NCBI RefSeq assembly: GCF_003955755.1
Contig: NZ_CP034465.1
Span: 2,536,001-2,600,000, forward strand
Direction of reading: 5' to 3'
Origin: Jeotgalibaca ciconiae
GTDB lineage: Bacteria > Bacillota > Bacilli > Lactobacillales > Aerococcaceae
Length of the DNA stretch: 64,000 nt
Every line of letters starts with the position of its first letter. Position 1 is the stretch's first letter. The notes under the pieces are model-generated. The model saw only the letters and a list, made by a program, of their open reading frames with translations, was not told the origin of the DNA and made no database searches. This document shows, one piece after another, positions 59,087-63,158 of the stretch. The position numbers and the translations under genes are program-made.

Positions 59087-60367
59087 TTGAATAATGATGC
59101 AGAAAAAATGTTTGACGCAATTCGAGAGAATGAGCAGGAAAAGGCTCTTGTTTATTTTAATGAATCTCTAAAAAAAGCGAAAATAGAAAAAGATATTGAA
59201 GGGTTAGCTGAATTTGCACGTTCCTTGCACATGGCTGGTTTTTTGGAACAATCTAAAGAGTCCTATTTATTATTACAAGAACTAGCTCCAGAAATAGAAG
59301 AATGGAACCTCTTTCTAGCAGAAATCGCCATTGATCAAAATCAAACCGATTCTGGTTTAGATTTGTTGCTCCAGTTTGATGAAGAGAGTGAATTATATCC
59401 AAACGCACTATTGATGCTTGCTGATGCTTATCAAACAATGGGCTTATACGAAGTGAGTGAGCATAAAATAAAAGAAGCGATGAGGATTCTTCCTGACGAG
59501 CCTGTTTTAGTTTATGCACTTGCTCAACTGTATCATACAAGCGGCAAATATAAAGAAGCAATTATTTTATACGAACAATTAGTGGAGGAAGAAACACAAG
59601 ATTTATGGCAAGAGAACCTGTTTATACTTCTTGCGGATTGTCACAATGCTATTGGGAATTTTGAAGAAGGAATTGATTACTTAGAACAAATTTATCAAGA
59701 AGATCATACTTCCGACAGTCTATTTCAATTAGGTTTTGCCTATTTACAATTAAAACAATTTCCAAGAGCTGTCCAAATTTTTGAACAGTTATTGGAAATG
59801 GATCCCGATTACAATAGTGCTTATTTCTACTTAGCTGAGTCACTTGATGAAGAACATAGGCATGAAGAAGCTTTAGATGCTATTCAAAAAGGAATTGATA
59901 TAGATCCTTATCAACCAGAATTCTTTTTATTTCAGGCAAAACTTTATCTTAAATTATCTGAAGAAAATGAAGCTGAAAAAAGTTTGGATCAAGTCTTACA
60001 TTTAGATCCTGATTTGATGGAAGCAAAATTACTGAAAATAGATTTATTAATCGGTCAAGAATCGTACGATGAAGTGATTCAAATGATTGAGACAGAAGAT
60101 AACGAAGGAATCTATCATCCAAACTATGAATGGAGATTAGCAAAAGTCTATAATGAAATAGAAGAATTTGTGAAGGCAGCTGCTCATTTTGATAAAGCTT
60201 ATCTTACACTAGCAGACAATCTTTCTTTCTTAGAAGATTACAGTGAGTTTCTTCGAGAGGAAGCAAATGATACTAAATTAGCAGAGTTAGTCGCAAAAGC
60301 ACTGATGCTAGATCCGAACCATACTTACTTTAATGAATTGCGAGAGAATCTGTTAACGAGTGAGTAA
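59087..60367 (+). CDS. ypiA: Tetratricopeptide repeat protein (YpiA-like)
   Basis: A 426-residue cytoplasmic protein composed almost wholly of TPR helix pairs (for example LYHTSGKYKEAIILYEQLVE, AYLQLKQFPRAVQIFEQLLE and FYLAESLDEEHRHEEALDAI), so it is a protein-interaction scaffold. The gene pair with ypiB downstream is the B. subtilis ypiA-ypiB order. The TTG start at 59087 has a GTAGGTGG site. The partner protein cannot be read from sequence. Confidence 0.85.
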   Translation: MNNDAEKMFDAIRENEQEKALVYFNESLKKAKIEKDIEGLAEFARSLHMAGFLEQSKESYLLLQELAPEIEEWNLFLAEIAIDQNQTDSGLDLLLQFDEESELYPNALLMLADAYQTMGLYEVSEHKIKEAMRILPDEPVLVYALAQLYHTSGKYKEAIILYEQLVEEETQDLWQENLFILLADCHNAIGNFEEGIDYLEQIYQEDHTSDSLFQLGFAYLQLKQFPRAVQIFEQLLEMDPDYNSAYFYLAESLDEEHRHEEALDAIQKGIDIDPYQPEFFLFQAKLYLKLSEENEAEKSLDQVLHLDPDLMEAKLLKIDLLIGQESYDEVIQMIETEDNEGIYHPNYEWRLAKVYNEIEEFVKAAAHFDKAYLTLADNLSFLEDYSEFLREEANDTKLAELVAKALMLDPNHTYFNELRENLLTSE

Positions 60368-60389: not shown

Positions 60390-60941
60390 ATGAGACGGCC
60401 AACATTAGAAGAAAAGAAGACGTTCATCACATGGTTTATACAGAATCATCAATTAAAAAGAAGAGAATCGCTTTGGATTTTGAATTACTTACTAAACCAT
60501 GAATTATTATTAAAGAACATCCATTTTGTTGAAAATATCGCTCTTACAAACCGCGGTATGGGATTAGCGACCGTTACGAGTTCAAATGAACCGTTTGTTT
60601 ACTACAAAGAAGGGAAAAGGTACGATGACCCTGAACAAGCATTTCATGACCTGCGTTTAAATTGGAAAGAAGATTTTTACTTGGAACTTTATTTTGAACA
60701 ATCTTATCAAGTTCTTTCGTTTTATAGTGTATTAGAAGCCAATCCATTTGAAGATGGAGATAAATTATTTTCTCCAGAAGTTGTGAGTATTGTTGATCAA
60801 TCACTTAAAAAACTTGCGTGGCAAGAACGAAAAAATCATCTTATGCAATTAATAGACACAGCCCTTATCGAAAAAGACGAAGAAAAATTTAAGAAGTACA
60901 CAGAAGAGTTAAAAGAAATTGATGAAAAAAATATGATATAA
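60390..60941 (+). CDS. reoY: YpiB/ReoY family protein (UPF0302)
   Basis: A 183-residue protein of the UPF0302/YpiB family. The N-terminal segment EKKTFITWFIQNHQLKRRESLWILNYLLN and the VENIALTNRGMGLATV block identify it. In Listeria the homologue ReoY works with ReoM to promote ClpCP degradation of MurA and so to tune peptidoglycan synthesis. A coiled acidic C-terminus (about 150-183) is visible. The ATG follows GGGGGAGGA. It lies 22 bases after ypiA, so both are probably co-transcribed. Confidence 0.88.
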   Translation: MRRPTLEEKKTFITWFIQNHQLKRRESLWILNYLLNHELLLKNIHFVENIALTNRGMGLATVTSSNEPFVYYKEGKRYDDPEQAFHDLRLNWKEDFYLELYFEQSYQVLSFYSVLEANPFEDGDKLFSPEVVSIVDQSLKKLAWQERKNHLMQLIDTALIEKDEEKFKKYTEELKEIDEKNMI

Positions 60942-60984: not shown

Positions 60985-62562
60985 ATGATTAATATAAAGC
61001 AAATACCTGAATTTAATAAGGCGGCCTCTCTCATAGAAAAAATTGAAAAAGAAGGATATGAGGCTTATTTTGTGGGTGGTGGAGTACGTGACACGTTACT
61101 TCACCTACCTATTTCAGATGTGGATATTGCTAGCAGTGCAACCCCAGAAGAAATAAAGCGTTTTTTTCCAGTGACCTTTGATGTTGGAATCCAACATGGA
61201 ACCGTTATGGTGTTACATGAGAAAGAAACTTATGAGATTACTACTTTTCGAACGGAATCAAAATATGAAAAATTTCGGCGACCGGAGAAAGTAGATTATG
61301 TCAGAAGTTTAGAAGAAGACCTAAAGCGTCGAGACTTTACTATTAATGCAATTGCCCTGAATAGAAATGGGCAGCTGGTTGATCCCTTTGATGGACAAAT
61401 TGATATAAAAAATAAATTAATAAGAGCGGTAGGGAATCCCTCTGAACGATTTCGTGAAGATGCCTTGAGAATGATGAGAGCAGCTCGTTTTATGAGCCAA
61501 TTAGGTTTTGATATTGAAGAGAAAACGAAAGAAGCGGTTGAGTATTATCATCCATTACTTTCAAAAATTGCAGTTGAAAGAATTCGCGAAGAATGGACAA
61601 AATTATTAATTGGGAGAAACAGAAAAGGAGGAGTAAAATTTTTTATAGAAACGCGATTGTTTCAGATGTGTCCTGGTTTTCAAAATCGTTCAGAAGATTT
61701 GGTTGACCTAGCGTTATTTCCCCATCAATTTCAGACGCCATTAATCGCTTGGACGGTTTTATTGTATTTTTTAAAAATTGATGAGGAAGAAGTAAGTTCT
61801 TTTCTAAGAGCGTGGAAACTTTCTAATAAAGAGATTTCAAATGTACGAACTGCATTATACGCTTTAAGAGTACGGATGGAACGTTTTTGGGATAACCATC
61901 TCCTGTTTGCAACTGGAATAAAAATTGCGTTAGAAATAGAAGACATTATGGCAGGATTTGGTGTGGTAAATGATATAAATCGACTGCTGGCTCTTGATAA
62001 AACTCTGCCCATACATTCAACACACGATATCCAAATTAATGGAAATGAAGTAATTCATTTGTTAGGATTTAATCGTGGTGGTCCTTATCTGGGCACCATC
62101 TTGGAAGATGTAAAAGATCGAATTCTGAGTGGCAGCTTACCAAACAACAAAAAACAAATTGAAACATTTATTTTAAAAAGAAGATTCATTTATCTGGATG
62201 AAGTGAAAAAAAAAGAGTATATTGTGGAAGAAGGGAATAGCGCCAGATCTATAGAATTAGGAGATACAGGAGTGCTGTCTTCGCCTAGCTTGCTTTCTTT
62301 TATGGAGGAGAGCTGCAAAGAAATGATTGAAGGTCTTGTTGAAGAAGATGAAACGTCCGTAGGTACTTTTGTCAGCATGAATCATCACTATCTTACAGAA
62401 ATCGGCTCAAAAATCATCATTGAAACACGGATTAAAGAATTATCTGGAAAAAAATATTCATTTTCCATTGTTGCGAGAAATGGCGATGATATCGTTGCTA
62501 TTGGAGAACATACCAGAAAAATCATTAACAAAAACGAATTTAGGAATAAATTAACAAAATGA
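60985..62562 (+). CDS. cca: CCA tRNA nucleotidyltransferase fused to a hotdog thioesterase-like domain
   Basis: A 525-residue protein; ordinary class II CCA enzymes in Firmicutes have about 400. Residues 1-400 are a complete CCA-adding enzyme: GGGVRD at 31-36, catalytic DVD at 45-47, RRDFTINAIALN near 113-124, and FREDALRMMRAARF. Residues about 411-525 are an added domain resembling FlK-type hotdog thioesterases: PSLLSFMEES (434-443), TSVGT (457-461), NHHYLTEIG (466-474) and IGEHTRKII (506-514). The join includes nine consecutive A residues (62206-62214), where a one-base slip would stop translation shortly after, giving a normal-length CCA enzyme. The CCA assignment is firm; the second domain is from remembered family pattern. 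Confidence 0.9.
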   Translation: MINIKQIPEFNKAASLIEKIEKEGYEAYFVGGGVRDTLLHLPISDVDIASSATPEEIKRFFPVTFDVGIQHGTVMVLHEKETYEITTFRTESKYEKFRRPEKVDYVRSLEEDLKRRDFTINAIALNRNGQLVDPFDGQIDIKNKLIRAVGNPSERFREDALRMMRAARFMSQLGFDIEEKTKEAVEYYHPLLSKIAVERIREEWTKLLIGRNRKGGVKFFIETRLFQMCPGFQNRSEDLVDLALFPHQFQTPLIAWTVLLYFLKIDEEEVSSFLRAWKLSNKEISNVRTALYALRVRMERFWDNHLLFATGIKIALEIEDIMAGFGVVNDINRLLALDKTLPIHSTHDIQINGNEVIHLLGFNRGGPYLGTILEDVKDRILSGSLPNNKKQIETFILKRRFIYLDEVKKKEYIVEEGNSARSIELGDTGVLSSPSLLSFMEESCKEMIEGLVEEDETSVGTFVSMNHHYLTEIGSKIIIETRIKELSGKKYSFSIVARNGDDIVAIGEHTRKIINKNEFRNKLTK

Positions 62563-62687: not shown

Positions 62688-63158
62688 ATGAAAAAAGTAA
62701 TGTCGAGCTTAAAATTTATTTTCCGTAATGGTGAGACTTGGACAATTAGTCGTGAAAATATAGGTGATTTATGGATCAAACAAGTAACAACTAGTTATGG
62801 TAGAATTGGTAATAGTGAATTTCAAGAAATTCATCCTTGCGAATCATTGCGTATTGAGATTTTCCAAGAAGCAGACCATGTTAAATCTGATGATATTAAT
62901 TTAGGCGGTATTGAAGCAGGAATGTTTGATCGCGTTAAAAAATATCAAGATATTGAAATGATGGATATTATGTACCAAGATGAGGACCATCCGAAATCAG
63001 ATGTGATTGTCCAAAGCGATCGTATTTATTTCCCATATAAAGCACTGGACACTGATGGAAACGACAATGAATATCAATCATCTAAAACAGTTGCTGAAAA
63101 ATTATACATTGTTATTGATCCAACTAAAGACGTAGAAGAAATTTACCCTAACAAATAA
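62688..63158 (+). CDS. Hypothetical cytoplasmic protein
   Basis: A 156-residue soluble protein without signal peptide or membrane helix, starting MKKVMSSLKFIFRNGETWTI. It is acidic and rich in beta-type segments; a DHVKSDDINLGG motif and a second DHPKSDVIVQSDRIYFPY motif look like two related repeats. I do not recognise the family, though similar short proteins are seen as conserved hypotheticals in Lactobacillales. GGAGTGA precedes the ATG by about 6 bases. It is a single-gene unit with an operator-like promoter and its own terminator. Confidence 0.75.
   Translation: MKKVMSSLKFIFRNGETWTISRENIGDLWIKQVTTSYGRIGNSEFQEIHPCESLRIEIFQEADHVKSDDINLGGIEAGMFDRVKKYQDIEMMDIMYQDEDHPKSDVIVQSDRIYFPYKALDTDGNDNEYQSSKTVAEKLYIVIDPTKDVEEIYPNK

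Follow-up and report, generated by a model that had tools for sequence, protein, structure and literature searches.

The window analysed here is a stretch of 64,000 nucleotides from Jeotgalibaca ciconiae (contig NZ_CP034465.1, positions 2,536,001 to 2,600,000), and all coordinates given below are those of the window. On its forward strand, a single open reading frame (60985..62562) starts with ATG, runs without any internal stop codon and encodes a protein of 525 amino acids. This gene is preceded on the same strand, 43 nt upstream, by a ReoY/UPF0302 gene (60390..60941), which is a probable operon neighbour, and before it by a gene encoding a TPR-repeat protein (59087..60367), also a conserved neighbour. 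A gene encoding a conserved protein of 156 aa lies downstream, again on the forward strand (62688..63158).

The long frame carries two domains. Residues 1-400 (60985..62184, forward strand) form a CCA-adding enzyme part, with Pfam matches to PolyA_pol (residues 27-147, E = 3.4e-37), PolyA_pol_RNAbd (174-228) and tRNA_NucTran2_2 (248-395, E = 2.5e-33). The NCBIfam equivalog NF009814 ("CCA tRNA nucleotidyltransferase") matches residues 9-398 with 484.9 bits, above its cut-off of 290, and the best match by sequence among solved structures is PDB 1miv (E = 2e-91, residues 8-399). Residues 404-525 (62194..62559, forward strand) form an FlK-type hotdog thioesterase part: Pfam FlK (PF22636) matches residues 415-516 (E = 1.3e-20), with 73.9 bits in the full protein and 78 bits for the thioesterase part alone against a gathering cut-off of 27, and the best solved structure by sequence is PDB 3kuv (FlK). 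The preliminary description, made from the letters only, had read this region as one continuous frame of 525 codons with a complete CCA enzyme up front and an FlK-type hotdog domain at the C-terminus, and this reading holds: the fusion frame is a genuine two-domain protein gene. Compared with CCA-adding enzymes of the 1miv type, the whole enzyme is retained and about 125 extra residues bring in the second domain. Compared with the fluoroacetyl-CoA thioesterase FlK (PDB 3kuv, 3p3f), the second domain belongs to the same hotdog family and keeps the Glu, Gly, His and Arg positions, but it is joined to a tRNA enzyme; the similarity is moderate (E = 1.5e-7 with 3kuv) and specificity for fluoroacetyl-CoA is putative at most. 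No report pairing a CCA-adding enzyme with a thioesterase or a hotdog domain was found among the titles and first lines of abstracts of the open-licence papers searched.

The residues expected for both activities were examined in an alignment of 17 of the 18 fused genes; a second alignment gathered 12 fused and 11 separate thioesterases. In the CCA half, G31, G32, V34, R35, D36, D45, D47 and R115-A122 are invariant in the 17 aligned fused proteins; they belong to GGxVRD, DxD and RRDFTINA, which we take to be the nucleotidyltransferase head motifs of CCA enzymes. In the thioesterase half, the alignment with 3kuv places S433, E441, G460, H467 and R511 at FlK positions 42, 50, 69, 76 and 120, i.e. 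at what we take to be the catalytic positions of FlK (Thr/Ser42, Glu50, Gly69, His76 and Arg120). Wild-type FlK has Thr42, and the fusion has Ser at that position. E441, H509 and R511 are invariant, G460 and H467 are found in 16 of the 17 aligned fused proteins, and the complete set of five FlK-type positions (Ser/Thr, Glu, Gly, His, Arg) is retained in 16 of them. The exception is the sister species (L003), in which Ser and Tyr replace the equivalents of the FlK Gly and His. Judging from these alignments, the J. ciconiae fusion has the predicted catalytic-type residues in its CCA half as well as in its thioesterase half.

Searching the genome with the whole protein (E ≤ 0.001) returned only this gene and an FlK-like gene, hence a single CCA-enzyme match. 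Moreover, at most 9 of the 72 tRNA genes detected by ARAGORN in the stretches fetched end in CCA, a loose count in which chance endings are included. Since there is a single CCA-enzyme match and most of the tRNA genes lack CCA, tRNA maturation should require the fusion to be active as a CCA enzyme. The FlK-like gene (G000:C1:186374-186739, L034) is unlinked to the fusion, shares 22% identity with the fused domain and groups in the tree with unlinked genes of other genera. It could supply a thioesterase activity.

The fusion was found in all 6 genomes of the genus Jeotgalibaca and in all 13 Trichococcus genomes; the other 57 genomes examined in the family lacked it. How many related genomes have the fused frame had been left as a point to check in the preliminary description, and the answer is 19 out of 19 in the two genera, a count that includes two genomes of low completeness (G397 and G398), neither of which is in the alignments. 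Across the phylum, 398 genomes were sampled, and among the matches listed the one in J. ciconiae alone spans both parts. In a tree of 53 sequences, the CCA halves of the fused proteins are monophyletic with a support of 100/100. Their thioesterase halves also group, with a support of 88/85, in a tree of 47 sequences from which 5 near-identical Trichococcus rows were omitted; resolution is poor in this second tree, with 15 of its 44 inner branches starred, and the closest unfused thioesterase gene is not discernible from it.

Three related families, which belong to the same order, have a separate thioesterase gene immediately 3' of cca on the same strand, in 26/29, 30/58 and 5/18 genomes, respectively, i.e. 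in 61 of the 105 genomes examined. These pairs were counted by eye, requiring a shared strand and a gap of less than about 200 nt, and genes located on another contig of a draft genome were counted as not behind cca. Gene order and domain are the same as in the fusion, whereas a stop codon divides the two proteins. In at least 14 of the 61 adjacent pairs, the fused query spans both separate genes in one frame, and the distance from the cca stop to the first thioesterase start is 0-33 nt in the 11 examined of these 14 pairs. Among the 57 unfused genomes of Jeotgalibaca's own family, 26 have a thioesterase match elsewhere in the genome and none shows one beside cca in the rows compared. A single fusion event before the split of the two sister genera is most likely, being the simplest reading of this distribution. 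Because separate thioesterase genes sit directly behind cca in three families, this event was most likely the loss of the stop codon between adjacent in-frame cca and thioesterase genes. A young stop-codon loss had been considered in the preliminary description; the kind of event seems right (in-frame neighbours merged), but not its age, which predates the split of two genera. Separate genes with a stop codon in relatives had also been thought to speak against the fusion. They do exist in other families, where they point to the likely ancestral state rather than to a refutation.

A trace of the former gene boundary seems to persist at the join. Codons 398-404 (KRR-FIY-L; 62176..62196, forward strand) would be the degraded remnant of the Shine-Dalgarno sequence and start codon of the old thioesterase gene, and the motif is recognisable in 16 of the 18 fused genes. 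In these 16 genes, the Arg-Arg codons provide a Shine-Dalgarno-like AGRAGR. Codon 404, a TTG or an ATG in them, follows at a distance of 9 to 12 bases and coincides, within a few residues, with the start of the separate thioesterases. The duplex energies predicted for the 16 AGRAGR motifs range from -5.7 to -13.2 kcal/mol. In J. ciconiae, the site reads AGAAGA and CTG, with -1.8 kcal/mol, and does not qualify as a Shine-Dalgarno sequence followed by ATG, GTG or TTG. The site of the sister species is degraded too (-0.9 kcal/mol, TTA), and the 50 codons that surround the join there contain no in-frame ATG, GTG or TTG. The domain is therefore probably made only as a part of the fusion in the sister species. 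For J. ciconiae, a fusion-only product is less certain, since in-frame GTG codons follow CTG 404 at codons 407 and 414, and since the value upstream of the first start is as weak as -1.5 kcal/mol in L045, one of the separate relatives.

Several other explanations of the join bear on which proteins are made from it. The join contains nine A residues (62206..62214, forward strand) that are read as three lysine codons (Lys408-410), as had been described at the outset, and the early stops announced for both shifted frames were found again by recomputation, one A fewer giving a protein of 422 aa and one more a protein of 418 aa. Because a homopolymer sits at the join, two genes merged by an error of assembly or of homopolymer length had been considered; yet the fused frame occurs in both genera, and the other fused genes examined have the identical join with no homopolymer, so that the probability of such an error is negligible. 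The preliminary description also proposed that slippage on the nine A could act as a switch. Programmed slippage would yield both a normal CCA enzyme and the fusion, and the run is at a plausible place for it, with both shifted frames stopping soon. However, of the 18 fused genes, that of J. ciconiae is the only one with at least eight consecutive A, whether inside the gene or close to it on either side, so that the homopolymer is not conserved among orthologues as slippage control would lead one to expect; furthermore, the 64-kb window contains two other A/T runs of nine (three with that of the join). Slippage is thus very improbable and we judge the run to be incidental: the same fusion without the nine-A run in relatives argues both against a sequencing error and against a conserved slippage. 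The idea of two products may nevertheless hold for most of the relatives, by way of an internal ribosome-binding site and not of slippage. Under this explanation, most fused relatives would start translation both at the front and at codon 404, and J. ciconiae would have lost the second product. The 16 duplex energies, which are within the range given by the same prediction for 11 separate relatives (-1.5 to -11.6 kcal/mol) or stronger, are in favour of it. Similarly, 14 of the 15 codons for Arg399 and Arg400 in 8 lineages are AGA or AGG, whereas the 25 other Arg columns that are conserved have 48 of 196 (Fisher 1e-7, from rows that are related and not independent). At codon 404, TTG or ATG is used in 6 of the 8 lineages, more than at any other of the 34 Leu columns. 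In a scan for synonymous conservation covering these 8 lineages (all 6 of the genus Jeotgalibaca and 2 of the 12 Trichococcus), codons 397-405 are the top of 517 windows. Nevertheless, the motif was seen first and tested after, and the family-wise P is 0.16 for the 8 lineages and 0.045 for the 6 lineages keeping the motif. Neither genus is significant family-wise when taken alone: codons 397-405 come 46th among 517 scan windows in the genus Jeotgalibaca (single-window P = 0.06) and 18th among 512 in Trichococcus (8 of the 12 genes; single-window P = 0.008, family-wise 0.85). In addition, the site is degraded in J. ciconiae itself. These data suggest that most of the relatives could make a free thioesterase beside the fusion, although we give the dual-product explanation as a whole somewhat less than even odds. 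Cas11b is reported to be made from an internal start inside cas8b (PMC11899642). The idea common to both cases is that a longer frame also contains the start of a smaller protein, except that the cca-thioesterase case is a prediction, and one that concerns the relatives rather than J. ciconiae.

Another explanation is that the hotdog domain is a passenger, tolerated by its host protein, decaying in some species and serving mainly as a tail for dimerisation or stabilisation. The thioesterase half indeed evolves faster than the CCA half, under looser selection: between J. ciconiae and the sister species, the former is 51% identical and the latter 83%. Within the genus Jeotgalibaca, the defined dN/dS values of the thioesterase half range from 0.17 to 0.31, with dS saturated or nearly so. 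This faster evolution, together with the loss of the catalytic His and of the Gly equivalents, suggests a relaxed constraint in the sister species, in which the hotdog activity may be dispensable. Conversely, the five FlK-type positions persist in all the other aligned fused proteins, and the thioesterase half is under purifying selection in Trichococcus, where dN/dS is 0.03-0.14 (8 of the 12 genes, pairs with defined dS). A mere passenger is unlikely.

The account that we favour, with a probability of about 80%, is that the gene encodes the only CCA enzyme found in this genome, extended by a C-terminal FlK-type hotdog domain that derives from a single stop-codon loss, with two independent enzymes in one chain and with products that would differ among the lineages. 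The cca and thioesterase genes would have been in-frame neighbours, and the stop codon between them would have been lost once, before the genera split, leaving the old ribosome-binding site to encode Lys-Arg-Arg ahead of the thioesterase. CCA addition would be carried out by the N-terminal half and acyl-thioester hydrolysis by the C-terminal half. Since FlK is a homodimer, the hotdog part may pair two chains, and hence two CCA enzymes, into a dimer. The thioesterase would probably occur only as a fusion in J. ciconiae and its sister species, and probably also as a free protein in the other lineages, from the retained internal start. The proximity of cca and thioesterase genes in so many genomes makes a link between the two activities possible. 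Moreover, the relatives line up naturally, with separate genes first, then a fused frame and finally a degraded internal start, which makes the retention of a free downstream protein in fused genes directly testable. A more detailed scenario, which we hold to be rather improbable, would start from an operon pair, pass through a fused gene with an internal start giving both products, then reach an obligate fusion in J. ciconiae and end with a thioesterase site that decays in the sister species. In this scenario, the obligate fusion would physically tie a hotdog thioesterase to the only tRNA CCA-adding enzyme of the cell, and the acyl-CoA state could thereby influence tRNA maturation.

Finally, we looked at the surroundings of the fused gene. 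Promoter and terminator scans gave no more matches than in shuffled sequences. The downstream 156-aa protein has no match in Pfam or NCBIfam and is present in 14 of the 16 related loci compared, with 55-94% identity across four families. A gene of about 265 aa, mostly preceded by a gene of about 111 aa, is located between the ReoY-like gene and cca in Trichococcus and in two further families (L114, L115, L117, L119 and L120); these genes, presumably DapB-like and MazG-like, respectively, are absent at this place from J. ciconiae and from the four other genomes of the genus compared. A fused gene of the Trichococcus type is also carried by the record MUZD01000002.1 (L061), titled Sedimentibacter sp. 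SX930, which is probably mislabelled or contaminated.
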